Below, in pieces: positions 5,401-20,083 of a stretch of DNA of 25,865 nucleotides. The translations under genes were made by a program, and so were the position numbers. The notes under the pieces are model-generated. The model had not been told where the DNA came from and did no database searches. It was given only the letters and a program-made list of their open reading frames with translations. Location of the stretch: the IMG/VR virus record IMGVR_UViG_3300047356_000444, positions 1-25,865 of that record; one strand, given 5' to 3'. Source of the DNA: a virus. How positions within the stretch are numbered: position 1 is the stretch's first letter; every line of letters begins with the position of its first letter.

Positions 5401-8400
5401 ACATTCACTTGTGATCAAAATGGATATGCAACCGAGCATACTTATCCACGTCCTGGACAAGATCCACAAGCAGGTAAGTCTATTGCTATTACTGATGTAG
5501 GAACCAATTCCCTAACAGTATCTGGAGCAACTTACACCGCTTCAAGTGGTCAAGTTGACATCACTACTTCCGCACCACACGGAATGCAAGAAGGTGATTA
5601 TATCTTGTTTGAAGATAACTCACTAACCTTTACGTGCAACCTGGACGGGAATGTAGTCAGTAAAAATTATCCACGTCCTGGTTATGACTACCCTAGCGGA
5701 AGATGGTTCCCAATTAGCAACATTTCAGCAAGTGGTTTTAGAGTTAATATTGGACCTTCTAGTTATACTGGAGTACATGCTTTTGTTTCCGCAACAAACA
5801 ATGGTCTAAAACATCAAGACGGAACATTTACAATTAATGTTGGTAACGCAGGTAGTGCATCAGGATCAAATCATCAGTTTGTAAATGCAACTGCTCAAGC
5901 AATTAAGCACGAACCACAATCTGTCCATACGTTTACTGGTTCAACATCTAATTCAGTAAAACATCTACCTCAATCCGCACATACGTTTGTAAGATCTGCA
6001 CCAAACGCTCTATCTATTGGTGGTTCTACTCTCAAAATTTATCTCGGAACATCTACTTTCGTACACACATATGTAAGTGGTGGTGTTGTAACTTACAATT
6101 CTCAAAATTATAATATTACTAATTTTGTTTATGATAATATTTCTACTGGCGAAGCAACTATTACCCTAGCATCTCCAGTTGCTGCTTTGTCTGAAGATGC
6201 TACTATTAGAATTTCGGATTTAGTTGTAGAGTGTGTAGTAGATGGTGTTACTACCCAAAAAACTTATCCAAGTTTTAGCATCCCTGTAAACGATAACAAG
6301 TGTCGTAGAGATGTCGGACATTTCATTAGTGCAATTACTAGAGACCTTGAGTTTGGTAGCAACTATAACGTTATTGATGCAGCGAAAAAGTATATTGATG
6401 GTACTAACACCCAGATTGATTTTGTCAATACCGAAATTATTCAGACAGTACGTGCTCTAGAATATGCAAGAGAACTGATCACTTTTGCTATGAGAAAGTG
6501 GCGTACTGGAACTGGAGCTCCTGGTCAAGCAATTTATGTTCCTCAATATTCTCAACTTGACAGATATTTTGACCCAACAATTATTGATGATATTTCAACT
6601 CCTGCTTGTGCTAACGTAGCATCTGCTATTGATACACTAGCATATCTGTTTATTGATGTTCTTGCTAATGATACCAGTGGAACTTATCTAGATGGTGCTT
6701 ATCTAATTGCTAGAAATAGAGATTTGATTGCTGATGAAGCATACAAACTAGCAATGATCCAATACCCTTCTCTTGGATTAGGTAACATTGATGAGCGTAA
6801 GTGTCGTAGAGATATTAACTTAATTACTGGCGCTATAATTAGAGATCTATCACTGGGAGGAAATGCTGGTATTGTCAATGCAGCAGAATTGTATTTCACA
6901 GGAAGTGCCCTAACTGGAATACCTGCATCTGAACTTGCTCCTACAAGGTTTGCATTCGAGAAAGCAAGAGATTTGTGTATCGCAGCAATGCGTAATTGGA
7001 CAGATGCATCTGGTGCTGCAGTCACCACACCTAATTCAGATATTCCTCAATTTACTGATAGTTCAATTCTTGTAGATCCTACTGGTGTACCTTTATGTGC
7101 AAACGTTGAAGCATCTATTACAACTGCATTCCAACTACTAGATGACATCTTGAGTGGCACTACCTCTCCTGGTGCTACAGTAAGAGATACGGGAACTTTA
7201 TTTGATACTTCAACTATTGCTACTTTCCCTGATAGCATTATTTACGATAGTAAAGGTACAAAACTAACTCCACGTTCTGATTTTGCTGATAATCCTATCA
7301 TTGAAGCATCTCCATATACTCAGAACGCATCTGTTATCTCCTTCCTAGGTGGTGGCGGTGCTGAGGTTGATGGTGATAAGGTTAAGCAACCTAACTGCCC
7401 CTTCCCTGGTCTTGAGTTAGACGGAACAGCATCCTTCCCCAATCAGGGTAAGTCGATGGTTGCATCAGCCTTTACTATCGTTTCTTTCGGTGGTACAGGT
7501 TACAAAATTACTAATGATGGTTATGTTCAGTTAGTTTCTGTATTCGTTATCTTCTGTGCCGATGGCGTCCTTGCTGAGTCTGGTGGTTATTGTTCCATCA
7601 CGAACTCTGCTACAAACTTTGGTATCTTTGCTCTCCGTGGCATTGGATTTAGAAAAGATGCATATGAATTTGATGTTGGTTTAATTAGTAATGTATCTTC
7701 CACTCCTACAGGCAGAACAATCTTCACAGTTTCTGGTTTAGGAAGAGAACCACTTGAGCATTATATTGTTAAAATTGATGGATTCTCGAACGTAGATCCA
7801 GATATTGAATACTTTATTGATACTGTAGAAGGAGTAACAGTTGGTCCTCCTTTCACTGCTCAACTAACACTTGAGTCTGGTTCTGGTGGTGGCGCAGCTT
7901 TAAAAAATGACGCTACTGATAACGCAGTTTCTGTTGGTACTTTGGTTGGTGAAACAGTAAGACTTCACAGACCATCTATTGTTAACTCGTCTTCACATAC
8001 GTGGGAATTTGCAGGATCAGGAACCAACTATAATGCACTACCAGAGAACGGCGGTACTAAAATTGAAGCATACGAACAAGTTTCTGAAAACTATGGTCGT
8101 GTATATGTCTCAGGTACTGACGAACTAGGCGACTTTAAAGTTGGAACATTTGCGAGAATTGAAAACAGAACTGGTAATATTACTTTCACAGGTACTGTTA
8201 CAATTTCGGAAGTTGAATTCTTGAAACTAAAAGGTGGCGACGTTGTTGTTACTGGTTTCGACGCATCCAACACACTTGGTGGTGCAAATACTACTAACTC
8301 TAAACTGCCAACGCAGAAAGCAGTTAAAGATTACATCACCAATAATCTCGGTCCATATCTAAACAAACCATATTCAACTAACCCTGTTCCTAGAGCACTG

Positions 8401-11400
8401 GTTGAACTTACTGATTCTGGTAAGATCTCGGAAGATCAGATTCCCCCTCTACGTCCTTTCCAAGTATTTACGGTTGCAAACCAATCAGAAAGAGTTGCTA
8501 TTGAAGGAGCACTTGCTGGTGATATTGCAATTCAACAGGATACTAACTCTTCATTCATTCTAAACAATGATAATGATAGTTTGTTTGTATCGTTCCCAAT
8601 TGATTCCACTCTTCAATTCACCATTGGTGACATCTTTACTGGCAGTAATTCTGGCGGTAAAATTCAATCAACTGAATATAGAGAAGGTGTTGTTTATCAA
8701 ATCAGTATTACTGATAATGGTTCTGGTTATGTTACTCCCCCTGTTGTAACTATCTCTGGTGGTAATCCTCAAGCAGGTGCTGTTTCAGCATTTGCTACTT
8801 GTTCGATTGCAAATGGTCAAGTTGTCCTGGTCGAGATTCAACTATTCAATAACTATATTGGTGGTAAAGGATACACTACTGCTCCTACAGTTACGTTCTC
8901 TCCTCCAGCAGGTTCTGGAACGCAAGCAGCTGGTGCTGCTATAATTGAGTCCAGACTCTATGGTGATATCGTCAACAATATCAAGATAGAAGATACAGAT
9001 GATATCGAATCTAGTGATATTCCTGCCGAGACTATTGCTATTACCCGTGTTATTAATACTTCTGCGAGTGATAGTAATAACTGGGTATCTCTATCTTCCA
9101 ATCAAATTGCTGCTAATGACATTACATCTGGTGTTATTTCTACCGCAAGATTAGCATTTACTTCAGATGCTGCAAACTCCTTCACATTCCTTAGAGGAGA
9201 TCAGTCATATAATCCTGTTATTCAATCACTCAAGGGTGCTGAGACTAGATATTTTGCTAAGATTACTTCACAAGCAAACAGCAGTTCTTCGCAATTAGTT
9301 TTTGCTACTAATTCAGATGTACTTCTTGGTCATGAAGTTGTAGCAAACATTAATGGTATTCAACCTAATACTAATATTTCTGGTATTCTTACTGCTGCTG
9401 GAACAACCACAGTCTCAATTGATAATCCACTAACAGCTACAATTCCAGTCAACACAGTTATTGAATTTGAGCGTGGTTCATCTCCACTAACATTTGAATC
9501 ATCACTTACTCAAGGAGACTTTATTGAATCCGTTGTTATTGCAGCGGGTGGATCTGGATTTACTGATGGTCAATTCTTTGATGTAGAACTAGATGGTGGA
9601 TCTGGTACAGGACTCAAAGCAAATATTATTGTAAGTGGTGGTACAGTTTCAGATCTAACACTTACTTCTACTGGTGTTGGATTCCTAAATGACTTCACAG
9701 TCACTTCTGCTCCAGCAGCTATTGGTTCTGGTACTGGTTTAGTTCTACTTGCAAAACTCAGTACAGTCAATAAGCAATTTGCAAACGTTGCTGTTGATAT
9801 CTCTAGAGTTTCTGATCTAACTATTTCTGCTGACGAATACGGAACAATTGGTGTTGCTAGATTCTATAAAGATCAATTTAAAATTGGTCTTGCTGGTAAT
9901 GGTTCTATTCAACTTAAGACTGGAGCAGACTCTGGTCTTGATGCTGACCTTCTCGATGGTGTTCAAGGATCTTTCTACCTTAACGCAGGTAATCTAAACG
10001 CAGGTGTTCTGCCCGTTGATAGATTATCTGGTACTTATAATATTAATATTGCTAACCAGTCTGGTAGTACATTAAGACTCAAGTCTTCTACAAGTAACCC
10101 AGCATCGAATCCAAACCCTGATTCGTTTAACGTTGGTATAATTGCAGATACTAGAAATAATGCTGCTGATGGTCTAGCAGATGGTGGCACACGTCACGTT
10201 ACAATGACTATCAGGAATGGTGGATCTGGATTTGATGCAACATTCGGTGGTGTAAGACAACTTGCATTCACTGATAATGATAATATGTATCTTAGAGGTT
10301 CTGGTTCTACCCTAGCAACCTTTAGTACATGGGCAAAGATCTGGTCTTCCCAGAATGATGGCATCAACTCTGGACTTGATGCTGATAAACTTGATAGTCG
10401 TCAAGGAACTTTCTATCAAAATGCTATCAATACAAATGAAGGCACATTCAGTGATCTTAGAATGCCTTCTCACCAAACACAGAAGGACTTCCAAGATAGA
10501 GTTAGAATTCTTGATTGGACAGGTCAACCAAGATTTAAAATTCTTGTTAGAGATGAACTATTAACGGCATCTCCATTCTTAGTTGGTTTGCCAGTTAACT
10601 TGTATGATGCTCAAGGTCTTGCTCCTGGTCGTATTTCAATTACTGATATTGCCATCAACCAAGATGCCAATGATCCTTCTAATAATTTCACTCTAATTAC
10701 AGGTACACTAACAACAGGTAACTTTATTGGAGCGATTGCAATTGGTGATACCGCAATCAACTATCCTTTCCAAGATTTTAGTATTGCGGACCTAGACGCT
10801 AATGCAGATGGACTACCCGATGGTACATTTGAAGTTGGAGGACTAGAAAGTAGTGGTGGTAATGCCAGATTGAAACTTGGTAGAAACGATGGTATCTCTG
10901 CTTCAGATCCTTCCGTCTACTTCAGATCTTCTCTCAACCCATCAACTAACTATAGTTCTGCAATTATTGCTACTGGTGGTAATTCCACCGATGGTTCTGG
11001 TTCTCTGGAATTTAAAGTATCAGATGTAAATCAGTTAACTCTATTAGGCAACATTATTTGGAATGAAGGTAATGTAGTATTCAACTCCTCTAATGTATTA
11101 TCAACAACATCACTGAAGTCTGCTGTAATGAGAGACACTAGTGGAGACTTTAGTGCTGGAACAATCACTGCTTCTCTAACTGGTGCTGCTTCACTTAACG
11201 TTCTTAAGGCAGGCGATACAATGTCAGGTCTGCTCTCCATCTCTGGAGTAGCGGTAGGACAGCAAGCATTGAGCGTATCTGGCAGAGGAGATTTCCTAAG
11301 CAATATTACAGTTGCTGCTGACCTAACAGTCAACACGGACACATTGCACGTTGATGCTATAGATGATACAGTAAGCATTGGCACAACTACTTCTGATTCT

Positions 11401-12432
11401 GCAGTAAAACTTCTGATTGTAGAAGATGGCGATCAAGATGTTGTCCTGAGAATGTATTCAACTCCTAATAGTGGAACACAATATGACTCAAGACTTGAAC
11501 TTCTTGGACAGAGTGGCACTCTAGATGAGGGTCTCCAACTCATGTATGACAACTCTGTTGGTGACGTGTACTTCAAGCAACTATACAATTCTCTAACAAC
11601 AGAAGTTGCAATACATTTCAGCACTGGTGCATTTACTGACGCTCTAACGATTACTGGTAACGGCAATCTGGGTGTACAGATGACTGCCAGTGATGCATAT
11701 GAGTTGGATGTAAATGGATCTTCAAGATTCAAGACTGCTCTTAGCGTTGGTCGTGCAGATAGCAATGCTGGTGCTCCTGCAATTTTCGCAGGCGCAACTG
11801 GTGGATCTAATGGAGCAGGTGGTTATCTAAGTAACTTCCGTGTTGGTAACCAACTTCTACAAGCAGATACTTTTGAAATCACACCTAGTGATGGAACGCA
11901 GGGTGCTCTAACTTGGAAATCTACTCCAGCACTTGCTATCCAAGGTTCCGAGAACCGAGTTGCAATCAATACTCTTCAGTTTGGTGGTACTGATACTACA
12001 GTATCTCCACAGGTTCAAAGAGAATATCAACTGAACATCCAAGGCGATATCAACATCAATGGTCTGGTCTTCCAGAACAACGCTGAGTTCGTTACTTCCA
12101 GATGGACAGAATCTGATAATGAACTGGATATCTACAGAGAGTCTAAGGTCTGGATTAACCCAGATTCAAGTGTTGCTGGATTTACTGGCAACCCCGACTA
12201 TGATCTACAACTTGGTGGAGGTGGCAATGATGGTCACTTCGGACTACATGGTGTAATGTACATTAGAGATACCCCTCAGTGGATTGATACTACTGGCATC
12301 ATCAAAAACTCCGCTAACACATTGTCAGAAAATGTAATTATTCCCGCAAATGCTAATGCAATGTCCATTGGTCCAATTACAATTCAACCAGGCATCACAG
12401 TAGATGTCGTAGGTAACTGGGTAATTATGTGA
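2425..12432 (+). CDS. Giant 3335-aa tail-fibre-like virion structural protein
   Basis: One uninterrupted 10-kb gene. Visible modules in order: a G-x-GY-x4-P-x-V type repeat (residues about 63-136); a probable parallel beta-helix segment starting GGRIYVS (about 293-480); four tandem copies of a roughly 80-aa repeat with DNS, TC, DG and YPRPG signatures (about 783-1120) and a degenerate fifth (about 1234-1283); two helical CRRD modules (about 1292 and 1459); a GGTGYKITNDGYVQ segment (about 1689-1740); a fibre-type LPTQKAVKDYI motif (about 1960); further GY repeats (about 2092-2175 and 2369-2440); two tail-fibre LDAD(L/K)LD motifs (about 2505 and 2651); and AGDTMSG (about 2929). The LDADLLDG and AGDTMSG signatures are typical of phage tail fibres. 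The gene lies where T4 has baseplate/fibre genes ahead of gene 13. No chaperone or enzymatic domain was recognised. It is translated from ATG 2425, with only a weak ribosome site, behind its own late promoter. Which fibre it forms is not known. Confidence 0.85.
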   Translation: MSFQLNSDRETIRAIAPTLIGSQELSIRAGSGSDEKEVLRTLLDPGTDLPRVGINRTGNRIDRVVVNLGGTGYTIQPTVNIEPPPAGGTQAVGSAIIDEGFVTAVLIDNPGKGYITAPAVTISGGNGTGAQVEAFLDTVDFELDINGAIRTSTSIISDTARILNLDIDNFITPDAKFRAPDLKTYMNNTGIPWTAQTIVQKDAYRYRGPNVYQALNAGETGTVPPLHKDGIETNNEVQFKHIGFRVTDPSAFQYNETGESGEFPRSITPLLGDRSTKIATTEYVLNLATNDVGGRIYVSAQIGSDLNDGRSAVAPVRTIKKAAQLAWSTPGVKETLIVSGGDYVEDNPISLPPDASVVGDNLRLVIIRPANPRKHIFKFGDKNYVIGVTYRDQVDSTGDAVATWDFAMVFDDKQRINYDYTANGDFGTSFPIGTQIFGPEKFRADFQTNTGLSNLTSNLAVKGINTGAEGIINEVNFGSIVGPQAYISGKLDFSVTSGAFTAGETFLFGGTGSIKWTPNTPYTIGQLLWATDNVYQVAVAGTSAASSPIHTTGTVATGPDTLELTFLRDAYEFVSTDIRSIRAEGEVVFEETDITDALPLVRIDFSKQGTAEVSTGGFQDPNVVEDNGGIIFYTNALVGRQNTHDFKEGQEIFIEGMPTSSPDLSFLNGKQRIYKVLEDADGRSRRFVIPKKTTITTTDNFDPGQFSSVRAYGKSITISLLNSPNRFPMATPVARRFQDACLQIRNNVEFIADEVVGKVNDQFKKEYYSVYEIGGTPDSTLTPTDVDYDPATGIATFTVTSHGLSIGDGVRITDNSITQTCAMDGYKTEHTSPNSHHYSSGKTLPIRSSGFTTDQFELFVGISGPDQQYTPTDVTYDPATGNVNLTIGAHTLSVGEGIVIDDNSLSFTCDMDGDQSVKSYPRPGIDPFASRSIPITEISATSITINGGISGPNKYFQPSAVNYNAATGDMTVTVGQHGLGVGRNVVLADNSFTFTCDQNGYATEHTYPRPGQDPQAGKSIAITDVGTNSLTVSGATYTASSGQVDITTSAPHGMQEGDYILFEDNSLTFTCNLDGNVVSKNYPRPGYDYPSGRWFPISNISASGFRVNIGPSSYTGVHAFVSATNNGLKHQDGTFTINVGNAGSASGSNHQFVNATAQAIKHEPQSVHTFTGSTSNSVKHLPQSAHTFVRSAPNALSIGGSTLKIYLGTSTFVHTYVSGGVVTYNSQNYNITNFVYDNISTGEATITLASPVAALSEDATIRISDLVVECVVDGVTTQKTYPSFSIPVNDNKCRRDVGHFISAITRDLEFGSNYNVIDAAKKYIDGTNTQIDFVNTEIIQTVRALEYARELITFAMRKWRTGTGAPGQAIYVPQYSQLDRYFDPTIIDDISTPACANVASAIDTLAYLFIDVLANDTSGTYLDGAYLIARNRDLIADEAYKLAMIQYPSLGLGNIDERKCRRDINLITGAIIRDLSLGGNAGIVNAAELYFTGSALTGIPASELAPTRFAFEKARDLCIAAMRNWTDASGAAVTTPNSDIPQFTDSSILVDPTGVPLCANVEASITTAFQLLDDILSGTTSPGATVRDTGTLFDTSTIATFPDSIIYDSKGTKLTPRSDFADNPIIEASPYTQNASVISFLGGGGAEVDGDKVKQPNCPFPGLELDGTASFPNQGKSMVASAFTIVSFGGTGYKITNDGYVQLVSVFVIFCADGVLAESGGYCSITNSATNFGIFALRGIGFRKDAYEFDVGLISNVSSTPTGRTIFTVSGLGREPLEHYIVKIDGFSNVDPDIEYFIDTVEGVTVGPPFTAQLTLESGSGGGAALKNDATDNAVSVGTLVGETVRLHRPSIVNSSSHTWEFAGSGTNYNALPENGGTKIEAYEQVSENYGRVYVSGTDELGDFKVGTFARIENRTGNITFTGTVTISEVEFLKLKGGDVVVTGFDASNTLGGANTTNSKLPTQKAVKDYITNNLGPYLNKPYSTNPVPRALVELTDSGKISEDQIPPLRPFQVFTVANQSERVAIEGALAGDIAIQQDTNSSFILNNDNDSLFVSFPIDSTLQFTIGDIFTGSNSGGKIQSTEYREGVVYQISITDNGSGYVTPPVVTISGGNPQAGAVSAFATCSIANGQVVLVEIQLFNNYIGGKGYTTAPTVTFSPPAGSGTQAAGAAIIESRLYGDIVNNIKIEDTDDIESSDIPAETIAITRVINTSASDSNNWVSLSSNQIAANDITSGVISTARLAFTSDAANSFTFLRGDQSYNPVIQSLKGAETRYFAKITSQANSSSSQLVFATNSDVLLGHEVVANINGIQPNTNISGILTAAGTTTVSIDNPLTATIPVNTVIEFERGSSPLTFESSLTQGDFIESVVIAAGGSGFTDGQFFDVELDGGSGTGLKANIIVSGGTVSDLTLTSTGVGFLNDFTVTSAPAAIGSGTGLVLLAKLSTVNKQFANVAVDISRVSDLTISADEYGTIGVARFYKDQFKIGLAGNGSIQLKTGADSGLDADLLDGVQGSFYLNAGNLNAGVLPVDRLSGTYNINIANQSGSTLRLKSSTSNPASNPNPDSFNVGIIADTRNNAADGLADGGTRHVTMTIRNGGSGFDATFGGVRQLAFTDNDNMYLRGSGSTLATFSTWAKIWSSQNDGINSGLDADKLDSRQGTFYQNAINTNEGTFSDLRMPSHQTQKDFQDRVRILDWTGQPRFKILVRDELLTASPFLVGLPVNLYDAQGLAPGRISITDIAINQDANDPSNNFTLITGTLTTGNFIGAIAIGDTAINYPFQDFSIADLDANADGLPDGTFEVGGLESSGGNARLKLGRNDGISASDPSVYFRSSLNPSTNYSSAIIATGGNSTDGSGSLEFKVSDVNQLTLLGNIIWNEGNVVFNSSNVLSTTSLKSAVMRDTSGDFSAGTITASLTGAASLNVLKAGDTMSGLLSISGVAVGQQALSVSGRGDFLSNITVAADLTVNTDTLHVDAIDDTVSIGTTTSDSAVKLLIVEDGDQDVVLRMYSTPNSGTQYDSRLELLGQSGTLDEGLQLMYDNSVGDVYFKQLYNSLTTEVAIHFSTGAFTDALTITGNGNLGVQMTASDAYELDVNGSSRFKTALSVGRADSNAGAPAIFAGATGGSNGAGGYLSNFRVGNQLLQADTFEITPSDGTQGALTWKSTPALAIQGSENRVAINTLQFGGTDTTVSPQVQREYQLNIQGDININGLVFQNNAEFVTSRWTESDNELDIYRESKVWINPDSSVAGFTGNPDYDLQLGGGGNDGHFGLHGVMYIRDTPQWIDTTGIIKNSANTLSENVIIPANANAMSIGPITIQPGITVDVVGNWVIM
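4771..5786 (+). repeat. Four tandem intragenic repeats in the giant gene
   Basis: Units begin near 4771, 5035, 5296 and 5527. Each encodes Y-x-(P/A)A(T/S)G, then HG(L/M) or HTL, DNS, (F/Q)TC and a DG or NG turn; units 2-4 end in YPRPG. A perfect 15-base identity, ttatccacgtcctgg, occurs at 5181, 5442 and 5667, spaced 261 and 225 bases (87 and 75 codons). This indicates recent duplication or gene conversion. A degenerate fifth unit lies at about 6124-6272 (YDNISTGEA, VVECVVDG, TYPS). Confidence 0.85.
6298..6990 (+). repeat. Two-copy CRRD helical module in the giant gene
   Basis: The two copies begin with an identical 15-base string, aagtgtcgtagagat, at 6298 and 6799, 501 bases (167 codons) apart. 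Both encode CRRD, then (A/I)I-x-RDL, (I/V)(D/N)AA-x3-Y and a helix ending AMR(K/N)W. They are predicted alpha-helical in an otherwise beta-rich protein. Confidence 0.75.
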
Positions 12433-12471: not shown

Positions 12472-13530
12472 ATGTCTAGTCTAAACGTAGGAACTGTAAC
12501 TCTGTCTAACGGACTGACACTTCCTTCATATACATCAAGTCCAGATAACAGACCATCACATAGTGCTGGTAGGACTATCTATGATTCGACTTCGGATACT
12601 ATTCAGATATCTGATGGATCACAATGGATTAGTGCGGGTTCTGCGGGTAGTGGTTTGATTACTGCTACTGGCGGTGAAGTTACATTCTCTGGTGGATATA
12701 AAGTTCACACATGGTACAATGTAGGAGAGTATAATTTTAATGTAACGGGAGCTGCTGGTGGTGCTACTGCCGAAGTTCTTGTGGTAGCAGGCGGTGGTGC
12801 TGGTGGAACTATTGGTGGCGGTGGCGGTGGTGGTGGCGTTTGCTACCATGGAACTTACCCAATCTCAACTGGTTCTTATGATGTAAAAGTTGGAGCAGGC
12901 GGATCTACACCTTTGTCTGGTTATCCTGTTGCTAAAGGTCAATCTGGAGGTAATTCTGAGTTTGGAACACATACCGCATTTGGCGGAGGTGCTGCTGGAT
13001 CATGGGGACCTAATGCTAGAGAAACTGGAGAACCAGGAGGTTCTGGCGGTGGTGCATCTGGTCCTGCTCCCAGACAACCACAAAGAGGAGAAGCAACCAA
13101 AGGTAGTGCTCCTGGTGGCGGTGTTACTCATGGAAATCCTGGTTATAGAAACGGCAATAATACTTCTGGAACACACTCTGGTACTCATACTGGCGGTGGT
13201 GGCGGCGGTGCTAACCCCAACAATACAGTTAATGGAAGAGTCGGTGGTGATGGCATCACCTACATGGGTCTAACTGTTGGTGGTGGTGGCGGTGGTGGAA
13301 CCCACGAAAACTATGGTACTGCTCCAATCACAACTCCTGCTGCTCCTGGTGGCGGTGGTCGTGGTGGATCTAGATCATCGCAATATGCAGGTGGCGGTGG
13401 ACAAGGTTGGGGCGAACCAGGACAAGTTAACACTGGTGGCGGCGGAGGCGGCGGCTGGTATAATGGTACTGGTAATGGTCAAGGTGCTGCTGGTGGTCCT
13501 GGCATCGTTCGTGTTCGTCATACAATCTAA
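12472..13530 (+). CDS. Glycine-rich adhesin-like tail fibre protein (copy 1)
   Basis: This 352-aa protein has three parts. Residues 1-55 are a short fibre-attachment-like module (NRPSHSAGRTIYDSTS, then DGSQWIS). Residues about 64-112 are a beta domain (GGYKVHTWYNVGEYNF, then VLVVAGGGAGG). Residues about 105-340 are extremely glycine-rich with Gly runs of up to eight. It ends with the strand GGPGIVRVRHTI. This layout is that of the phage glycine-rich fibre-tip domain, in which poly-Gly sheets present variable loops to the receptor; I compare it with the Pfam glycine-rich domain class from memory. It is paralogous to the gene at 17444. The overlapping V/L-rich reading frames are by-products of GGT/GGC repeats. 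The start ATG 12472 has no good Shine-Dalgarno site. Receptor binding is inferred. Confidence 0.8.
   Translation: MSSLNVGTVTLSNGLTLPSYTSSPDNRPSHSAGRTIYDSTSDTIQISDGSQWISAGSAGSGLITATGGEVTFSGGYKVHTWYNVGEYNFNVTGAAGGATAEVLVVAGGGAGGTIGGGGGGGGVCYHGTYPISTGSYDVKVGAGGSTPLSGYPVAKGQSGGNSEFGTHTAFGGGAAGSWGPNARETGEPGGSGGGASGPAPRQPQRGEATKGSAPGGGVTHGNPGYRNGNNTSGTHSGTHTGGGGGGANPNNTVNGRVGGDGITYMGLTVGGGGGGGTHENYGTAPITTPAAPGGGGRGGSRSSQYAGGGGQGWGEPGQVNTGGGGGGGWYNGTGNGQGAAGGPGIVRVRHTI
12823..12839 (+). repeat. 17-bp perfect direct repeat, copy A
   Basis: The sequence ggcggtggtggtggcgt lies at codons 118-123 of the first adhesin gene and recurs exactly at 17771-17787 in the second. Both copies are read in the same codon phase (GGC GGT GGT GGT GGC GT). 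They are separated by 4948 bases and flank the enzyme cassette. Confidence 0.85.
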
Positions 13531-13533
13531 TAT

Positions 13534-14031
13534 ATGTTTTACAATGTAGAGGAAAATTTCCTCAATAGTGAAGAGTTTGAACAACTAACTAAACAAACAA
13601 TAAACAATCCTTATTTCCCGTTGTATTTGAAGAACCGAGTAGCGTCGGCGTCTTCAAACGACGGGATTTATTTTACCCACAATTTTTTCTTTGCTGGCGA
13701 GGTATGTAGTGATTACTACGATCATCTTTCTCCTATTATAGAAAAAATTAAAACTAAAAAATTTCTAAGAATTCAATTAAATTTATTTCCCAAAACTACT
13801 GAGATCGTGCGCCACGACTGGCATACAGATATGCTTTGGGATCATAGAGGTTGTATAGTCTACCTAAATACTAATGATGGGTCAACGTTATTAAAAGAAG
13901 ATGATGAGAATGCTATAAGCATTCGTTCTATATCAAACAGAGCATTATTTTTCAATCCAGCAAAACCTCATTGTAGTACAACATGTACTGATTCTGAATT
14001 CAGAAGCAATATTATTTTTAATTATGAGTGA
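13534..14031 (+). CDS. 2-oxoglutarate/Fe(II)-dependent oxygenase
   Basis: This 165-aa protein starts 3 bases after the adhesin stop codon and overlaps the next gene by 8 bases. It is a compact double-stranded beta-helix oxygenase by motif: the iron-binding pair H97-x-D99 in DWHTDM, a distal H146 in NPAKPHCST, and R157 eleven residues later, which could bind 2-oxoglutarate. The family hydroxylates or otherwise oxidises a substrate using O2, Fe(II) and 2-oxoglutarate, giving succinate and CO2. Substrates include protein side chains, nucleic acids and small molecules, and nothing here identifies which. Such genes are common in marine cyanophages. No ribosome binding site is obvious, so translation may be coupled to the adhesin. 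The gene looks more AT-rich than the adhesin before it. Confidence 0.75.
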   Translation: MFYNVEENFLNSEEFEQLTKQTINNPYFPLYLKNRVASASSNDGIYFTHNFFFAGEVCSDYYDHLSPIIEKIKTKKFLRIQLNLFPKTTEIVRHDWHTDMLWDHRGCIVYLNTNDGSTLLKEDDENAISIRSISNRALFFNPAKPHCSTTCTDSEFRSNIIFNYE

Positions 14032-14695
14032 ATTATATAATGTTTTTTCTATACCCGTATGGAAAACAAAAATAACTAAAAATGATTATGACAAAGATCT
14101 CATTCTCAATGAGATGCTGTACAATTTTAATGTAGATCCCAAAAGAAATACTTGGGATAAGGTAATGCCAACTACCATGAAAAGTAACTGGCACCATTCC
14201 AATAATGACGAGGCAGACGAAAAATTTAAATCTATCAGTTACAAAGACTCTGGATTGACTTCTGTTATAGACTCAAAGGTTAGAGAATTTGTTTCTCACC
14301 TTGGATTAAATTCCAGCATCAATTATTTTTTTCAAATAACTAATTATACAGTATCTACAGAAGGTTACTTCCTCACCAGTCATGGTCATGGTTGTGACTC
14401 TTTTAGTTCTGTGTTATTTGTGCAATTTGATAAACTTAATCACCCCTCTACATATTTTAATAATCCGTTTAGTTCATCAGATCAAACTAGATGGTTACAG
14501 AAAGACCTATATGATTCGTTTGATAACAAAAATTCATTTTTTAGTTACATGCAAGATACATGGTCAATTGATACTGACGAAGATGATTACATGATTTTTC
14601 CAGGACATGTCAAACACGAAGTTCCTACTGTAGGAAAATCAAACAAAGAACGAGTAACTATTTCATGCAATATTAAGGTGTACAAAAATGTCTAA
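14024..14695 (+). CDS. Putative 2OG-Fe(II) oxygenase of the PF13759/TIGR02466 type
   Basis: This 223-aa protein begins with MSELYNVFSIPVWKTKI, the FSIPVW opening typical of this oxygenase family. Candidate metal ligands are in SHGHGCDSFSSVLF (H120, H122, D125) and in IFPGHVKHEVP (H198), and ERVTISCNI (R210) is the usual 2-oxoglutarate-binding segment. The order of motifs (HxH-rich strand, FPG..H strand, R-x-(S/T)-(I/F)-S strand) matches the family. The spacing of the first motif differs from the classic HxD of its neighbours, so this is a separate subfamily and not a tandem duplicate. It overlaps the upstream and downstream genes by 8 bases each, which implies translational coupling. The substrate is unknown. 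Confidence 0.7.
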   Translation: MSELYNVFSIPVWKTKITKNDYDKDLILNEMLYNFNVDPKRNTWDKVMPTTMKSNWHHSNNDEADEKFKSISYKDSGLTSVIDSKVREFVSHLGLNSSINYFFQITNYTVSTEGYFLTSHGHGCDSFSSVLFVQFDKLNHPSTYFNNPFSSSDQTRWLQKDLYDSFDNKNSFFSYMQDTWSIDTDEDDYMIFPGHVKHEVPTVGKSNKERVTISCNIKVYKNV

Positions 14696-16244
14696 TGAAA
14701 TTAATTCAATTACTATAGTTGGTGGCGGTAGTGCTGGATGGATGTCTGCCGCTACAATGATTAGGTTTTTTCCAGACAGAAAAATTACTATCATAGAAAG
14801 TCCAGACTACCCAATCGTAGGAGTTGGTGAAAGTACACTAGGACATATCAATCAGTGGTTAGATCTGCTAGGAATTCATGAAGATGATTTTATGAAGGAG
14901 TGTGATGCTTCTTACAAATTAAGTATTAAATTTACAGACTTTTATGCAAAAGGAGATGGTGGTTATCATTACCCATTTGGACCACCAATGTTGGATGGAA
15001 CTGAACTTGGGTTTAATGATTGGCAAGTATTAAAACATTTTTCTCCTGGTATTCCTGTACAAGATTTTGCCAGATGTTATAATCCTATAACCCTTTTGGC
15101 AGAGCAAAATAAAATTGATAAAAATGAGAGTGGTCACTTAGATAATTTTAATTTTGCAAAAGATGCTGCATATCACTTTGATGCTGTTAAATTTGGACAA
15201 TGGTTGAAAAAAAATTATTGCCTTCCTAAAGGTGTAGAACTTATTTCATCTTCTGTAAAGAATGCTATCGTAGGTGCAGATGGAGTAGAATCATTAATTC
15301 TCGAAGATGGTACAGAGCATTCTGCTGACATGTATCTTGATTGCACAGGATTTAAAAGTATGCTGTTAGCAGGTGCTTTAAATGAGGAGTTTGTTTCTTA
15401 TAGAGATGTTGTTCCTAACAACAGAGCATGGGCAACTAGATTACCTTATACAGATAAAGAAAAACAATTAGAACCATTTACTAATGGAACTGCTTTATCA
15501 TCTGGTTGGGTATGGAATATTCCTTTGTGGAGTAGAATTGGAACAGGTTATGTGTATAGTGATGATCACATCACACCAGAGGATGCGTTAAAAGAATTCC
15601 AAGAACACATAGGAAGAGATGATCTTGAGTTTAGAGATATCAAAATGCGTATTGGAATTCACAAAAATGTGTGGAGTAAAAATGTAGTTGGTATTGGTCT
15701 AGCAGGAGGTTTTATTGAACCTTTAGAAAGCAATGGATTATTTACTGTACATGAGTTTCTACTCAAACTAACAAAATCTATTTCCAAACCTTTTGTAAAC
15801 CAATTAGATAGAGACATTTTTAACATGTCTGTCCGTGATATATTTGATACATTTGCTACTTTTGTAGGTCTTCACTATAGACTTAGTTCTAGAAACGATA
15901 GTCCTTATTGGAGAGATATTACAGAGAGATCTAATCTATGCGAAGAAATTTTAAAAATTCCCCAAATGCAAACAGATTTTAGACATCTAGCAGTAGCAAA
16001 AATGATTGATGATAAATTCTGTAACGGAGGACAACCTTATATTGCTACAGGTATGCATTATCCAATTGCAGATGAATCAACAATTTGTGCATGGGGATAT
16101 CATAATGAGGTAAACTATAAAAAAATAGCACAGGAATCTGCGTTACGATTCTCTAGAAGAAAACATTTATGGCAATGTGTGGCGGACATTGCTCCAACAT
16201 TGTATGCACATTTGGCAGATAAATATGAATATGAGGTAAATTAA
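14688..16244 (+). CDS. FAD-dependent (tryptophan-type) halogenase, VirX1-like
   Basis: This 518-aa protein is close in length to PrnA and RebH. The N-terminus has the FAD site GGGSAGWMSA (residues 12-21), specific to flavin halogenases. VGVGESTLGHI follows, and then ECDASYKLSIKF, whose K77 matches the catalytic lysine K79 of PrnA/RebH. The diagnostic W-x-W-x-I-P motif is intact at 274-279 (WVWNIP). FIEPLESNGLF supplies a glutamate (E347) matching PrnA E346; the residues lining the halide pocket, ST in PrnA, are SN here. The enzyme uses FADH2, O2 and halide to form a hypohalous species that is passed to the lysine to halogenate an electron-rich aromatic substrate. A cyanophage homologue (VirX1 of phage Syn10) is known to prefer iodide and to accept many substrates; similarity to it is my inference. 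No flavin reductase is encoded nearby, so FADH2 would come from the host. It has a good ribosome site, AAGG, 9 bases before the ATG. Confidence 0.9.
   Translation: MSNEINSITIVGGGSAGWMSAATMIRFFPDRKITIIESPDYPIVGVGESTLGHINQWLDLLGIHEDDFMKECDASYKLSIKFTDFYAKGDGGYHYPFGPPMLDGTELGFNDWQVLKHFSPGIPVQDFARCYNPITLLAEQNKIDKNESGHLDNFNFAKDAAYHFDAVKFGQWLKKNYCLPKGVELISSSVKNAIVGADGVESLILEDGTEHSADMYLDCTGFKSMLLAGALNEEFVSYRDVVPNNRAWATRLPYTDKEKQLEPFTNGTALSSGWVWNIPLWSRIGTGYVYSDDHITPEDALKEFQEHIGRDDLEFRDIKMRIGIHKNVWSKNVVGIGLAGGFIEPLESNGLFTVHEFLLKLTKSISKPFVNQLDRDIFNMSVRDIFDTFATFVGLHYRLSSRNDSPYWRDITERSNLCEEILKIPQMQTDFRHLAVAKMIDDKFCNGGQPYIATGMHYPIADESTICAWGYHNEVNYKKIAQESALRFSRRKHLWQCVADIAPTLYAHLADKYEYEVN
16218..16225 (+). 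promoter_or_regulatory. Weak late-promoter candidate (GATAAATA) inside halogenase 3' end
   Basis: The motif ends 21 bases before the ATG at 16247, which fits the spacing of the other late promoters. It lies inside coding sequence and lacks the G that follows the core in all the stronger sites, so it may be chance. Confidence 0.25.
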
Positions 16245-16246
16245 TT

Positions 16247-16843
16247 ATGGCATATGAAGCGATGTGGTATCAATCACATTTACCAGATGAGTTAATTGAT
16301 CCATTGGTATCAACTTTAGAACAATCTGATAATTTTATTGATTCGGAAACTAAAGGTGGATTAGCATTAGCAGTTAGAGATAGTTCAAACCAATGGATTC
16401 CTGATACTCATTGGATTTGTGGATTGTTATGGCATTATGTTACTCTGGCAAACGATAGTAATTTTGGTTATGACATTAAAGAATTTGATCATAATTCAAT
16501 ACAATATACTAGATACAAAACTGGTCAATATTATGGATGGCATAAAGATGACGGAGTGGGAAGTATAATTTCTCCTGATCCTAAGCACCCAGTTGAATCT
16601 TTTATTGATAGAAATACTAAACAGATTAGAAAATTGTCTGTAGTTGTCCAGTTATCTTCACATGAAGATTACACTGGCGGAGAATTTCAAATGCTAGAAG
16701 ATCAAAATAAAACTTTTTTTGCACCAAAAACAAAAGGAACTATTATTATTTTTGATAGTAGACTTCCTCATAGAGCTAAAAAAGTATTGTCTGGTGAAAG
16801 ACGATCTTTAGTTGCTTGGGTAACTGGACCCCAGTGGAGATGA
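16247..16843 (+). CDS. Prolyl-4-hydroxylase-like 2OG-Fe(II) oxygenase
   Basis: This 198-aa protein carries the complete oxygenase signature. H99-x-D101 lies in YGWHKDDG, and a TGGEFQML strand follows. The distal H175 is in FDSRLPHRAKKV, with R185 in SGERRSLVAWVTGP placed ten residues on for 2-oxoglutarate. The TGGEF, LPHR and GERRSLVAW string is that of PKHD-type/prolyl-4-hydroxylase oxygenases, which act on protein side chains, often proline, or on small molecules. The substrate cannot be read from sequence. It starts 2 bases after the halogenase stop codon with GAGGT upstream, and the next gene begins across its stop codon. It is the most confidently assigned of the four oxygenase-like genes. 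Confidence 0.85.
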   Translation: MAYEAMWYQSHLPDELIDPLVSTLEQSDNFIDSETKGGLALAVRDSSNQWIPDTHWICGLLWHYVTLANDSNFGYDIKEFDHNSIQYTRYKTGQYYGWHKDDGVGSIISPDPKHPVESFIDRNTKQIRKLSVVVQLSSHEDYTGGEFQMLEDQNKTFFAPKTKGTIIIFDSRLPHRAKKVLSGERRSLVAWVTGPQWR

Positions 16844-16845
16844 GT

Positions 16846-17424
16846 ATGAATTGGAATGATTGGTCTGTTATTGTAGTAAAAAATATTATAAATCCTGTAT
16901 TTTTATTTGAACCTGTTCCTTGGGAACGAGGACAATATAGTTATGAGTCCAAGGGAAATGTTATTCATGTTCCTGATGAAGGACAAGTTAGTGGTAGTTT
17001 GTCTAGATATAATCACCCAAAATTTAGGCAATTGCATTTTGATGTAAAATCTAAAATAGAAAATGTAATTAATGATCCTCTGTATCCAACATACTTTTAT
17101 GATAGATTTTATTTTAAAAAACAACTACTAGAAAAACATGTGGATAGACCTGCATGTGAAGTAAGCATCTCTATTAATTGCTCGCATAATTTAGATTATG
17201 ACTGGCCAATATGGTTTACAACTCCAGATGGAGATGATATCCCGTTGATTACAAATCCTGGCGATGGGGTAATTTACAAAGGATGTGAACGACCTCATTG
17301 GAGAGAACCAATGGAAGGAAATTCAGAATCATACTATCATCAAATGTTCATGCACTACGTGCGTAGAGATGGTCCTCATCTAGAACATGCACATGATAGA
17401 TGTAATACTATAAATAGAGTATAG
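16846..17424 (+). CDS. Probable oxygenase-fold (2OG-Fe(II)-like) protein
   Basis: The ATG at 16846 is chosen because GGAG (16836-16839) lies 6 bases before it. The ATG at 16840, in an ATGA overlap, would leave no spacing, and an upstream in-frame TTG (16816) is unlikely. The product is then 192 aa. Candidate ligands are H98-x-D100 in KHVDRPACEVS and H151 in ERPHWREP, preceded by NPGDGVIYKG and followed by QMFMHYVRRDGPHLEHAHDR. The GDG-x-IYKG, HWRE and F-x-HYV-x4-GP order is a pattern I associate with a family of phage and bacterial 2OG-Fe(II) oxygenase-fold proteins. The usual arginine about ten residues after the distal histidine is not obvious, so activity is less certain than for its neighbours. 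It is the last gene of the cassette and contains a late promoter at its 3' end. Confidence 0.6.
   Translation: MNWNDWSVIVVKNIINPVFLFEPVPWERGQYSYESKGNVIHVPDEGQVSGSLSRYNHPKFRQLHFDVKSKIENVINDPLYPTYFYDRFYFKKQLLEKHVDRPACEVSISINCSHNLDYDWPIWFTTPDGDDIPLITNPGDGVIYKGCERPHWREPMEGNSESYYHQMFMHYVRRDGPHLEHAHDRCNTINRV
17409..17416 (+). promoter_or_regulatory. T4-type late promoter (TATAAATA)
   Basis: This is an exact match to the T4 late -10 consensus, followed by GAG. It lies within the last codons of the upstream gene and ends 27 bases before the second adhesin gene. It is flanked by a small dyad (CTATA...TATAG, 17408-17424). Confidence 0.8.
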
Positions 17425-17443
17425 CAAAAAGTCTTGACAGAAC

Positions 17444-18658
17444 ATGTCCGAAATTAATGTTGGTGATTTAAACGTATCTACCGAATTTAACTTACCCCTT
17501 TATAATAGTTCTAACAGACCCGTGAATCCTGCTACAGGATTCATGATATTTAATACTACCGAAAATAAATTGCAGGTATGGACTGGATCTCAATGGAAGA
17601 GTTTTGGTCAACAAAATTATGATATTAGTGCAACTGGCAGCGTAGTTACTAACGATTTAACTGGTGACTATAACGGATACAGAGTTCATAGGTTTACTGG
17701 GGATGGAACTATAACAGTCAACCAAAGTAATCAAGATGGTGGTGTAGAATTTCTACTAATCGCTGGGGGAGGCGGTGGTGGTGGCGTCATCGGCGGTGGT
17801 GGTGGTGCTGGTGGTGTAATCTATAGAAGAGAACTTTATCTAGCACCAGGTACTTATAATATTTCCATTGGTGGTGGTGGCGCAGGAGGAACTGGATGGA
17901 ATAGTCCACAGCAAGAAGGTCGCGCAGGGACTCCATCTGTATTTACCGATAATGCTGGATTTAGTTATGAAGCAGTAGGCGGTGGTGGAGGTTGTGGTCA
18001 TGGCGGTGCTACACCAAATAGAATTGCTGGTCAAGGTGGTTCTGGTGGTGGTTCTGCTAATATCTCTAGAAGAGGTGGCAATGCAATTGGTAAAAACTTC
18101 GGACCTCAAGCAACAGATAAAGCACATGATATCAGATCTGTGTACTTGAGTAGTAACGATGCTATGGCTGATGGTGATGCACTTGGTAGAAGTGCTCAAA
18201 GTTGGGATGCCATCGAAACATCAACTAATGAACACCAAGGAGTTCAAGGAAACGCTGGTGGTATCTGGGGTGATGGAGACGCTGGCGCTGGTGGTGGTGG
18301 ATTTGGCACTAATGGTGGCAATGGTGGTGCTCCCAGAGATACTGGTGGCGAAGGTGGGCACGGAGGATACTTTGATATCAGTGGATCAATGGTTGGTTAT
18401 GCTGGCGGTGGTGGTGGCGGTGTCCGAGGCACAGGTCGCCGTCGTGGCACAAAAGCAGGTGACTATGGTGGAGGAGATGGAGGCAGGGCAACTGGTGCCC
18501 CCGTCAATTTTGGTAGTCCCTCACCTAACAATGCTGAAGCTGGCGCAACTAATCGCGGTGGCGGTGGCGGTGGTGGCGGTTATAACGCCCCACGTGGCGG
18601 TGCTGTAGGTGCTCCAGGTGGATCTGGAGTTTGTATTATTCGATATAGGAAATCATAA
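17444..18658 (+). CDS. Glycine-rich adhesin-like tail fibre protein (copy 2)
   Basis: This 404-aa protein is paralogous to the product of 12472-13530. The N-terminal module has INVGDLNVS, NRPVNPATGFMIFNTT and TGSQWKSFG, against LNVGTVTLS, NRPSHSAGRTIYDST and DGSQWIS in copy 1. A beta domain (GYRVHRFTGDGTITV, then FLLIAGGGGGGG) and a long poly-Gly region follow, and the end GGSGVCIIRYRKS parallels GGPGIVRVRHTI. The glycine-rich loops differ strongly between the two copies, as expected if they face a receptor and diversify. It has one residue block unlike copy 1, at about 225-270, with few glycines (ATDKAHDIRSVYLSSN). It has its own late promoter, whereas the enzyme genes before it have none that is convincing. 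A receptor-binding role is inferred, not shown. Confidence 0.8.
   Translation: MSEINVGDLNVSTEFNLPLYNSSNRPVNPATGFMIFNTTENKLQVWTGSQWKSFGQQNYDISATGSVVTNDLTGDYNGYRVHRFTGDGTITVNQSNQDGGVEFLLIAGGGGGGGVIGGGGGAGGVIYRRELYLAPGTYNISIGGGGAGGTGWNSPQQEGRAGTPSVFTDNAGFSYEAVGGGGGCGHGGATPNRIAGQGGSGGGSANISRRGGNAIGKNFGPQATDKAHDIRSVYLSSNDAMADGDALGRSAQSWDAIETSTNEHQGVQGNAGGIWGDGDAGAGGGGFGTNGGNGGAPRDTGGEGGHGGYFDISGSMVGYAGGGGGGVRGTGRRRGTKAGDYGGGDGGRATGAPVNFGSPSPNNAEAGATNRGGGGGGGGYNAPRGGAVGAPGGSGVCIIRYRKS
17771..17787 (+). repeat. 17-bp perfect direct repeat, copy B
   Basis: This is identical to 12823-12839 and lies in the same codon phase, at codons 110-115 of the second adhesin gene. Confidence 0.85.
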
Positions 18659-19204: not shown

Positions 19205-19240
19205 AAATCCCTGCTTCCTAAATAGAAGTAGGGATTTTTT
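19205..19240 (+). terminator. Rho-independent terminator with a late promoter as its loop
   Basis: AAATCCCTGCTTC (19205-19217) pairs with GAAGTAGGGATTT (19225-19237) over 13 pairs including one G-T wobble. The loop is the seven bases CTAAATA. The 3' arm runs into TTTTTT (19235-19240). The hairpin separates the small-gene unit from gp13. Confidence 0.85.
19217..19224 (+). promoter_or_regulatory. T4-type late promoter (CCTAAATA) in the terminator loop
   Basis: The core CTAAATAGA ends 28 bases before the gp13 start, the same distance as for the 18980 site. It would start the neck/terminase operon while upstream transcripts are stopped by the same hairpin. Confidence 0.75.
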
Positions 19241-19252
19241 GTATCTAGGTGC

Positions 19253-20083
19253 ATGGCTACACCAACAACTAAAGCAGAACTAATTGCATATTGTGAACGC
19301 CAATTAGGTGCGCCTGTCCTGCAAATCAATATGGATGCCACCCAAAAGGATGACATCATAGATCAGGCGTTGCAATATTATCACGAATACCATTTTGATG
19401 GTGTCGAAAGGATGTATCTAAAGCATCAGTTTACTGCTGCAGAGGTAACTCGTTTCACTGAAACTAATGCTGCATCCACGTCACCTGATGGAACTGGGTG
19501 GGAGAACAGGAGTAACTACATTGAAGTTCCTGAACTTGTTATAGGTATTCAAAAAGTTTTTGGAGTCTCTTCAAATTTCTTGAGGAATAACCTTTTTGGT
19601 ATGAGCAATCAATACTATTTGATGGACCTGTTTTCTTTCTCATCAGGTTCGGCATTTAGTTTTGGTAATTTTGACTTAACAAATTACTATATGATTAAAC
19701 AGCACTTTGAAACTATTGATATGGTTATCAATACAGGTGCGTTTGTTGAGTATAGATTTAATAAAAGACAAGATAGATTATATGTAGATATTGATAAATC
19801 TAGAATTATAGAAGATCAATATTTACTTATTGATTGCTATAGATACCTGGATCCAGATGTACATACTCAAGTTTATAATGATAGTTTTGTAAAGAGATAT
19901 GCTACTGCTCTCATGAAGAGGCAGTGGGGTCAAAACTTGATTAAATATAACAACGTTTCACTTCCTGGTGGCATTAATCTTAATGGTCGCCAACTATGGG
20001 AAGACGGAAACAGAGAAGTTCGTGAGTTGGAATCTAGAATGATGATAGATTATTCACTCCCACCAATGGATATGATCGGATAA
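19253..20083 (+). CDS. 13: Head-tail neck protein gp13
   Basis: This 276-aa protein opens with MATPTTKAELIAYCERQLG followed by INMDATQKDDIIDQALQYYHEYHF, a signature of T4 gp13 homologues. T4 gp13 (309 aa) forms with gp14 the neck that closes the DNA-filled head and joins the tail. The run gp13-gp14-gp15-gp16-gp17-gp18 follows in T4 order, which fixes the assignment. Aromatic-rich middle and C-terminal parts (VERMYLKHQF, KRYATALMKRQWGQNL) are also family features. AGGTG just ahead of the ATG is the ribosome site, somewhat close. Confidence 0.92.
   Translation: MATPTTKAELIAYCERQLGAPVLQINMDATQKDDIIDQALQYYHEYHFDGVERMYLKHQFTAAEVTRFTETNAASTSPDGTGWENRSNYIEVPELVIGIQKVFGVSSNFLRNNLFGMSNQYYLMDLFSFSSGSAFSFGNFDLTNYYMIKQHFETIDMVINTGAFVEYRFNKRQDRLYVDIDKSRIIEDQYLLIDCYRYLDPDVHTQVYNDSFVKRYATALMKRQWGQNLIKYNNVSLPGGINLNGRQLWEDGNREVRELESRMMIDYSLPPMDMIG

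Follow-up and report, generated by a model that had tools for sequence, protein, structure and literature searches.

Why should a T4-like cyanophage carry a flavin halogenase and four oxygenase-like enzymes between two glycine-rich fibre proteins? The locus that raises this question lies in IMG/VR viral record IMGVR_UViG_3300047356_000444, of which positions 1 to 25,865 (25.9 kb, called the window below) were analysed. The genes of the window run from virion structural genes through a 3335-amino-acid tail fibre to the glycine-rich gene GlyA, the enzyme genes oxA, oxB, halogenase, oxC and oxD and a second glycine-rich gene, GlyB; a small unknown gene, gp13, gp14, gp15 and terminase and sheath genes follow. 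On balance, we infer that the cassette from GlyA to GlyB is a post-translational tailoring module that modifies tail-fibre tips, a reading in which both the reaction and the substrate are deduced from the associations described below. The features concerned are the following (2OG, 2-oxoglutarate; FAD, flavin adenine dinucleotide; E, expectation value; papers are cited by PMC number, for the parts of their text that were accessible):

2425..12432, + strand: giant tail fibre protein encoded upstream of the cassette (PHROGs tail fiber protein family phrog_5342, 4822 bits)
12472..13530, + strand: GlyA, predicted glycine-rich tail-fibre tip protein, 352 amino acids, 30% Gly (PF21722, E 7e-9; Pam3 fibre fold match)
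13534..14031, + strand: oxA, 2OG-Fe(II) oxygenase-like, 165 amino acids (phrog_274, E 5e-37; HxD at 97, distal His 146)
14024..14695, + strand: oxB, 2OG-Fe(II) oxygenase-like, 223 amino acids, HxH instead of HxD (PF13759, E 1e-6, above cut-off)
14688..16244, + strand: predicted FAD-dependent halogenase, VirX1-like, 518 amino acids (PF04820, E 2e-101; VirX1 6qgm, E 2e-108)
16247..16843, + strand: oxC, prolyl-hydroxylase-like 2OG-Fe(II) oxygenase, 198 amino acids (PF13640, E 1e-13; 3dkq, E 2e-4)
16816..17424 (start likelier near 16846), + strand: oxD, predicted 2OG-Fe(II) dioxygenase fold (invariant H108, D110, H161)
17444..18658, + strand: GlyB, second predicted glycine-rich tail-fibre tip protein, 404 amino acids (PF21722, E 5e-13; 37% identity to GlyA)
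19253..20083, + strand: gp13-like neck protein (head-tail adaptor), downstream border (phrog_211, E 5e-42)

The first-pass annotation, made from the letters alone, had placed five enzymes between two paralogous glycine-rich proteins, and all seven open reading frames are indeed there, intact and co-directional on the + strand, with the enzymes at 13534-17424. Its description of the spacing as no more than 3 bases fits three gaps of 2-3 bases (GlyA-oxA, halogenase-oxC and, with the later oxD start, oxC-oxD) and fails for two 8-base overlaps (oxA/oxB, 14024/14031; oxB/halogenase, 14688/14695) and for the 19 bases between oxD and GlyB. The later oxD start matches the annotated orthologue in phage Sf-CH11, which has the identical seven genes in identical order at 79.8% DNA identity. 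The ratio of nonsynonymous to synonymous substitution rates (dN/dS) between the two phages is 0.04-0.18 across all seven genes. Since the order is kept and the ratios are this low, the cassette is neither a chance arrangement nor decaying DNA, and all seven of its genes are maintained by selection. Synonymous divergence (dS) from Sf-CH11 is lower in GlyA and oxA (0.67 and 0.54) than in the remaining cassette (1.0-1.4), which may reflect recent recombination in the left part.

Over residues 8-424 of 518 the halogenase matches PF04820 in Pfam, and among solved structures VirX1 from cyanophage Syn10 (PDB 6QGM) is the closest, with 42% identity over 430 positions. The GxGxxG and WxWxIP motifs are kept (GGGSAG at 12 and WVWNIP at 274), and SYKLSIKF and FIEPLESNG align with TYKNSIRF and FIEPLESTG of VirX1, so that Lys and Glu, to which catalytic roles are assigned in VirX1-type halogenases (in part after PMC8407142), are in place. 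Judged by its sequence, the gene encodes an FAD-dependent halogenase of the VirX1/PrnA type whose activity is predicted, and the earlier description of a flavin halogenase with intact catalytic motifs was borne out at each motif. No flavin reductase was found among the 17 window proteins scanned with Pfam and PHROGs, and therefore the reduced FAD that the halogenase requires may be supplied by the host.

The four remaining enzymes had been taken for proteins of the 2OG-Fe(II) fold, which agrees with family membership and motifs for oxA, oxB and oxC and with the predicted fold for oxD. Pfam matches exceed the cut-off for oxB (PF13759) and oxC (PF13640), oxA matches PF13640 only at E 0.03, and oxD has no match; in iterative hidden Markov model searches oxA groups with oxB and oxC, and these three are assigned by sequence to the 2OG-Fe(II) oxygenases. 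Putative metal triads are present in oxA (H97-D99/H146), oxC (H99-D101/H175) and oxD (H108-D110/H161). The oxB protein departs from the HxD/E triad in having HxH, the form also found in 139 of the 160 relatives from these loci that bear a motif. The oxC protein resembles the PKHD-type hydroxylase 3dkq. For oxD, an AlphaFold model (predicted local distance difference test, pLDDT, 87.7) gave 461 Foldseek matches at E ≤0.001, the best of which are 2OG dioxygenases, including a Pseudomonas prolyl hydroxylase (E ~1e-6), and its three motif residues are invariant across 29 aligned sequences; the model thus predicts a double-stranded beta-helix fold. Fold and motifs led us to reject the name ‘ferrochelatase’ (phrog_2954) for oxD, and motifs and family kinship the name ‘DNA endonuclease V’ (phrog_274) for oxA, in both cases in favour of a 2OG oxygenase. 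The two names are repeated across many of the public cyanophage annotations examined and appear to be wrong.

GlyA and GlyB both exceed the PF21722 cut-off and are 37% identical in a single alignment; a PDB sequence search with either found no match. In an AlphaFold model of GlyA (pLDDT 71, predicted template modelling score 0.71), residues 74-352 match the fibre of cyanophage Pam3 (7ypx) with a Z score of 16.7, a root-mean-square deviation of 2.6 over 193 residues and 26% identity. The model also matches the Bxb1 tail tip (Z 15.9), and its N-terminal part resembles weakly a phage major tropism determinant (Z 4.5). The model thus assigns to GlyA the tumour necrosis factor (TNF)-like and glycine-rich domains found in Pam3 gp24, and by sequence GlyB would be a glycine-rich tip of the same kind. 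The glycine-rich domain of the Pam3 fibre is proposed to bind the receptor (PMC9608196), and the same paper compares it with the glycine-rich receptor-binding domain of the gp38 adhesin of Salmonella phage S16. Given this fold match, the proteins that flank the enzymes are very likely receptor-binding tips, for which ‘adhesin’, the word used at first, is fair. Pam3 differs in the N-terminal part of the protein, and no tailoring enzymes are mentioned in the accessible text on it (PMC9608196).

If the enzymes belong with the tips, the two should occur together in other phages, and a lack of linkage between halogenase and adhesins had been named in advance as a result that would speak against the idea. 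Such a result was not found, and the pairing recurs. Related loci were taken as the best 80 of 585 for the halogenase, the best 80 of 318 for tips of the phrog_863 type and the best 80 of 131 for tips of the S-SM1 type. Loci fetched with GlyA contain a halogenase in 11 of 13 cases, and the remaining two contigs end before it. A halogenase set was built from relatives and named phages; removal of proteins under 400 amino acids and of near-duplicates reduced it from 159 to 93, of which 35 lacked 5 kb on one side or the other. Among the other 58, a glycine-rich protein lies within 6 kb in 36 and an oxygenase within 3 kb in 56. In whole named genomes with a PF21722 match, a halogenase lies within 5 kb of such a match in 11 of 16, against 2.1 expected and a maximum of 8 in 5000 random placements. 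This distance test left out S-MbCM6 and S-H38, which have no PF21722 match; one sub-cut-off halogenase fragment of Sf-FP1 was dropped, and the split fragments of S-SSM7 and P-TIM40 were merged by hand. Further halogenases of S-RIM44, Sf-FP1 and P-TIM40, 68-147 kb from any PF21722 match, serve as an internal control, and because of them the linkage is to be understood as concerning one part of the family. The second halogenase of Sf-CH11 lies 8.3 kb from another PF21722 match.

The reverse test started from tips of the phrog_863 type, which are unlike GlyA. A same-strand halogenase follows downstream in 76 of 80 contigs, after a median gap of 559 and at most 2105 bases, and 65 of these 76 loci also have an oxygenase; the remaining four contigs (L132, L133, L144 and L188) have only 1-574 bases left beyond the tips. 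The S-SM1-type tips, in contrast, are followed by at least two oxygenases in all 39 loci with at least 2.5 kb downstream, and no halogenase was found within the available stretch of any of them; PF04820 has no match in the whole genomes of S-SM1 and S-RSM4. Five of 44 loci, with less than 2.5 kb downstream, were dropped from this set, and 35 more distant glycine-rich loci, counted apart, have a halogenase in 5 and none in 30. With 76 of 80 on one side and none of 39 on the other, the tip type predicts the enzyme set, and the distance test, the reverse test and the S-SM1-type contrast together led us to reject a chance neighbourhood.

Placing linkage on a FastTree tree of the halogenases takes 16 changes, where shuffled labels take 25.1 (none of 500 as low), so that linkage to tips is clustered on the tree and yet has often been gained or lost. 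The tree has 80 rows, from which short-flank loci without a glycine-rich neighbour were left out, a choice that favours linkage there. More distant cyanophage halogenases (L102-L105, L093 and L099) stand outside fibre cassettes and may have another role, and S-SSM5 has a split or partial halogenase at 175 kb. In three distant phage contigs (L254, L255 and L257) a glycine-rich gene is directly followed by a halogenase, two oxygenases and an oxD-like gene, a run that in L254 and L257 lies near gp13.

Isolates of S-RIM44 offer a comparison within one named species. In NC_047734 (the RefSeq copy of KX349294; L004), a cassette of three glycine-rich tips, two halogenases, three 2OG enzymes, a JmjC_2 protein and an oxD relative stands between the giant fibre and gp13. 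In KU594607 and KX349297, two examined of the four S-RIM44 records without a fibre-linked halogenase, the same site holds, apart from two small genes, only a 294-amino-acid protein (12% Gly in KU594607) and a single PF13759 oxygenase. PF21722 has no match in either of these whole genomes, and their sole halogenase is the distant copy near 167 kb. The gp13-side flank of KU594607 is 97.3% identical to that of the cassette-bearing isolate across 3.3 kb, and the upstream giant fibre is kept in both alleles, albeit divergent (51-59% protein identity). The two S-RIM44 isolates without glycine-rich tips are thus also without both fibre-linked halogenases and, at this site, all but one oxygenase. These alternative alleles, with the giant fibre upstream and gp13 and gp14 downstream, mark the site as a variable fibre-bearing island beside the neck genes.

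Loci also vary in size around the same core. Two minimal loci, L020 and L029, consist of a glycine-rich tip, a halogenase and gp13, with no oxygenase across the available 9-14 kb; expanded contigs such as L037 combine three glycine-rich genes with four halogenases and eight oxygenase-like genes. JmjC_2 (PF08007) occurs in 11 of 24 named genomes and inside the cassette in 9, with extra copies elsewhere in the genomes of Sf-FP1 and P-TIM40; it was not found in Sf-CH11, Sf-FR1 or the two cassette-less S-RIM44 isolates. Since the PF08007 family includes ribosomal-protein hydroxylases, its presence in sister cassettes favours protein substrates. In most phrog_863-type loci a protein of 130-220 amino acids, which the window lacks, stands between the tips and the halogenase (L004 6032-6493 and equivalents); it belongs to phrog_1787 in the three tested, has no Pfam match in the two tested, and may act as a chaperone of the tips or as a partner of an enzyme. 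Carbamoyltransferase genes were seen in the tip-oxygenase island of S-SSM5 (L101 6628-8292) and beside the halogenase of S-SSM7 (L096 6072-9447), where they perhaps serve further modification of tips or surfaces.

Taken at its fullest, the proposal is that each glycine-rich tip type travels with matched halogenase, 2OG and JmjC enzymes that install halogenated or hydroxylated residues and so extend the chemistry available for gripping a receptor beyond the 20 amino acids, this being also the natural role of VirX1; we hold this wider form tentatively, at a little short of even confidence. GlyA and GlyB would be receptor-binding tips in which loops are exposed on a conserved glycine stem. While virions are being produced, the four 2OG-Fe(II) oxygenases would hydroxylate side chains of newly made tips, and the halogenase would add Br, I or Cl to electron-rich aromatic residues of these loops, Trp first and then Tyr or His. 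Whatever order the enzymes would follow, one or both tips would be halogenated before or during assembly, and the chemistry of the receptor-binding surface, and with it host binding, would be altered.

Which residues might be modified was approached through conservation. In the window phage they are perhaps two tryptophans of GlyA, whose conservation was compared with the presence of a halogenase:

13003..13005, + strand: Trp178 codon of GlyA, candidate halogenation site
13456..13458, + strand: Trp329 codon of GlyA, candidate halogenation site

Trp178 is W in all seven GlyA-type tips and in both minimal-locus tips, and in one of 21 tips from halogenase-free loci. Trp329 is W in all seven GlyA-type tips and in none of the 21, and falls in a gap in the two minimal-locus tips. 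With one exception the two residues thus track the presence of a halogenase and, the samples being small and related, are candidate sites only. Among 90 non-redundant phrog_863-type tips, Tyr136, Asn161, His166, His189 and His210 show 93-99% conservation, with replacement by Arg (3) and Tyr (2) for His166, Tyr (3), Trp (1) and Ser (1) for His189, and Tyr (5) and Trp (1) for His210. One would not expect such conservation in a variable tip; a requirement for electron-rich rings at these positions would be in keeping with it. Trp content as a whole differs only slightly between tips with and without a halogenase.

A number of observations weigh against tip modification. No glycine-rich protein lies within 6 kb of 22 of the 58 non-redundant halogenases. 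The loci are related, and with near-copies among the named phages (syn9, Syn10) the counts are not independent; the tip family of the reverse test was itself taken from halogenase-linked phages. 2OG genes are scattered genome-wide; 44 of 115 have a glycine-rich protein within 12 kb where 19.9 would be expected, only about a twofold excess. The halogenases of S-MbCM6, Syn1 and S-H35 stand outside fibre cassettes, 85 kb from the glycine-rich tip in S-H35, and in P-SSM2 the nearest PF21722 match is 56 kb from the halogenase, two neighbours of which are annotated as L-shaped tail fibre assembly proteins. The exception among the 21 tips, a glycine-rich protein of L230 with Trp at positions 178 and 313 and no halogenase, counts against a strict Trp-halogenase rule; it is a different glycine-rich protein (L230 2058-3110) that entered the S-SM1-type set by size and was kept. 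Tips with and without a halogenase do not differ consistently in Tyr content, and in His content GlyB resembles halogenase-free tips. In the virion proteome of S-SZBM1, proteins 51 and 52 of the fibre region are listed and 48 and 49 go unmentioned in the main text (PMC9146016); judged by their numbers, 48 and 49 appear to be its two glycine-rich tips, which may be missing from the virion, have few tryptic sites or carry unexpected modifications. The site lies, finally, in an island known to be hypervariable, where host-surface genes are found as well (PMC7029224), which makes hitch-hiking of the enzymes with the tips possible, and a halogenase cluster of the jumbo cyanophage S-SSM6a has been read as serving secondary-metabolite synthesis or polysaccharide decoration (PMC7824862).

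The last two points lead to the main rival, that the enzymes modify a host surface molecule (lipopolysaccharide, capsule, pigment or lipid), for instance to block superinfection, and sit beside the tips through an exchangeable host-recognition island. The island between VrlC and gp14 holds fibres together with glycosyltransferases, and a change of host surface has been proposed for it (PMC7029224); decoration of capsular polysaccharide was suggested for the S-SSM6a cluster (PMC7824862), and in S-SSM7 heptose, sugar-epimerase and carbamoyltransferase genes lie beside the halogenase. The halogenases of S-SSM7 and S-SSM6a are, however, distant (29% identity), and no glycosyltransferase or sugar family was matched by the seven cassette proteins in Pfam and PHROGs. 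Minimal tip-halogenase-gp13 loci exist, and the tip family predicts the halogenase nearly without fail: every phrog_863-type locus counted that continues for more than 574 bases past its tips has one (76 of 76), and none of the S-SM1-type loci counted does (0 of 39). We therefore regard a host-surface substrate as unlikely. Enzymes acting on another virion protein, such as the upstream giant fibre or the baseplate, or serving as non-catalytic chaperones of tip folding, would suit the position of the giant fibre gene directly upstream and the precedent of the chaperone gp25, which serves the Pam3 fibre gp24 (PMC9608196). The motif residues of the enzymes are intact, however, and both S-RIM44 alleles keep the giant fibre while tips and enzymes differ in kind, so that we give this explanation very little weight.

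A small-molecule role has been proposed in print: the enzymes would make or tailor a compound (PrnA-like chlorotryptophan, an antibiotic or a secondary metabolite) or alter 2-oxoglutarate levels. Antibiotic protection was proposed for cyanophage prnA (PMC2984593, PMC9964418), a halogenated secondary metabolite for the S-SSM6a cluster (PMC7824862) and modulation of 2OG/NtcA (PMC3037559); VirX1 accepts many small aromatics in vitro (PMC8407142), and for the more distant halogenases outside fibre cassettes such a role is plausible. For the window it seems improbable, somewhat more so than a host-surface target: no synthetase or pathway gene was found among the 17 scanned proteins (open reading frames under ~100 amino acids excluded), as had been noticed at the outset for synthetases, and a small molecule gives no evident reason for the specificity of tip types or for the joint absence in S-RIM44. 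A natural-product cluster with its own synthetase was rejected: apart from the two tips, the five enzymes and one small unknown, the 17 scanned proteins belong to the virion or to packaging. The tip proteins would themselves have to be the precursors for such a reading to apply. Of the substrates considered originally (a fibre side chain, a host glycan or lipid, a host metabolite), the matching of tips and enzymes, the minimal loci and the joint absence in S-RIM44 thus favour the fibre side chain, and its chemistry remains the conjectural part.

Modification of tips by the cassette would most likely parallel the tailoring of ribosomal peptides. MibH and SrpI, from pathways of ribosomally synthesized and post-translationally modified peptides, and VhaA of vancomycin are flavin halogenases whose targets are Trp or Tyr within a peptide; MibH requires that proline has first been hydroxylated, and VhaA, whose substrate is a non-ribosomal peptide, that the tyrosine carries a beta-hydroxyl group (PMC12615548). 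Their substrates are short natural-product precursors or intermediates, unlike the folded virion proteins proposed here. The prolyl 4-hydroxylase of chlorella virus PBCV-1 is a virus-encoded 2OG hydroxylase whose structure (5c5t) Foldseek also matched to oxD; PBCV-1, unlike the window cyanophage, infects a eukaryotic alga, and we know of no halogenase or glycine-rich tip linked to its enzyme. Prolyl-hydroxylase-like proteins are widespread in marine phages according to Phold (PMC12774648), and cyanophage 2OG genes have been proposed to modulate nitrogen metabolism or DNA repair (PMC3037559, PMC9602691, PMC9146016). The nearest printed hint at fibre hydroxylation comes from PMC9301287, which names a prolyl hydroxylase of viruses alongside the collagen of viral tail fibres.

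The first-pass annotation knew of no described function for this combination. A link between halogenase and fibre tip was indeed not found in searches of the open-access literature (preprints and most subscription papers lay outside their scope), nor in the accessible parts of PMC10452541 and PMC10436341. The host recognition cluster of cyano- and pelagimyophages lies at the same location, between large fibre and neck genes, and the accessible main text on it (PMC7029224) does not contain the word ‘halogenase’ or tie oxygenases to tip chemistry. The statement was too broad in two respects, as VirX1 (PDB 6QGM) has been characterised and the S-SSM6a cluster interpreted otherwise (PMC7824862). 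The latter resembles the window cassette in combining a halogenase with several 2OG and cupin-like hydroxylases, and differs in its carbamoyltransferases, methylase, sugar phosphatases and only 29% identical halogenase. VirX1 has been presented as a biocatalyst for small aromatics, with no natural substrate given in the accessible text (PMC8407142), and its gene in Syn10 (L006 9511-11103, CPUG_00131) lies within the same kind of tip-halogenase-oxygenase run.

As to borders and signals, a 13-pair hairpin followed by T residues (19205-19237) stands immediately before gp13 and is possibly a terminator or processing site that ends the cassette. A promoter scan gave no excess over shuffled sequence.

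The enzyme families and the island were already known; an association of them with this specific, testable function we did not find in print. If this function is correct, cyanophage halogenases and 2OG oxygenases would have a different job from the antibiotic, metabolite, host-regulation and DNA-repair roles assigned to them, and VirX1-type enzymes would gain a natural substrate. Modification of tips makes a precise mass-spectrometry prediction for phages already in culture, and, were it to hold, protein halogenation would be a means of varying phage adhesins.

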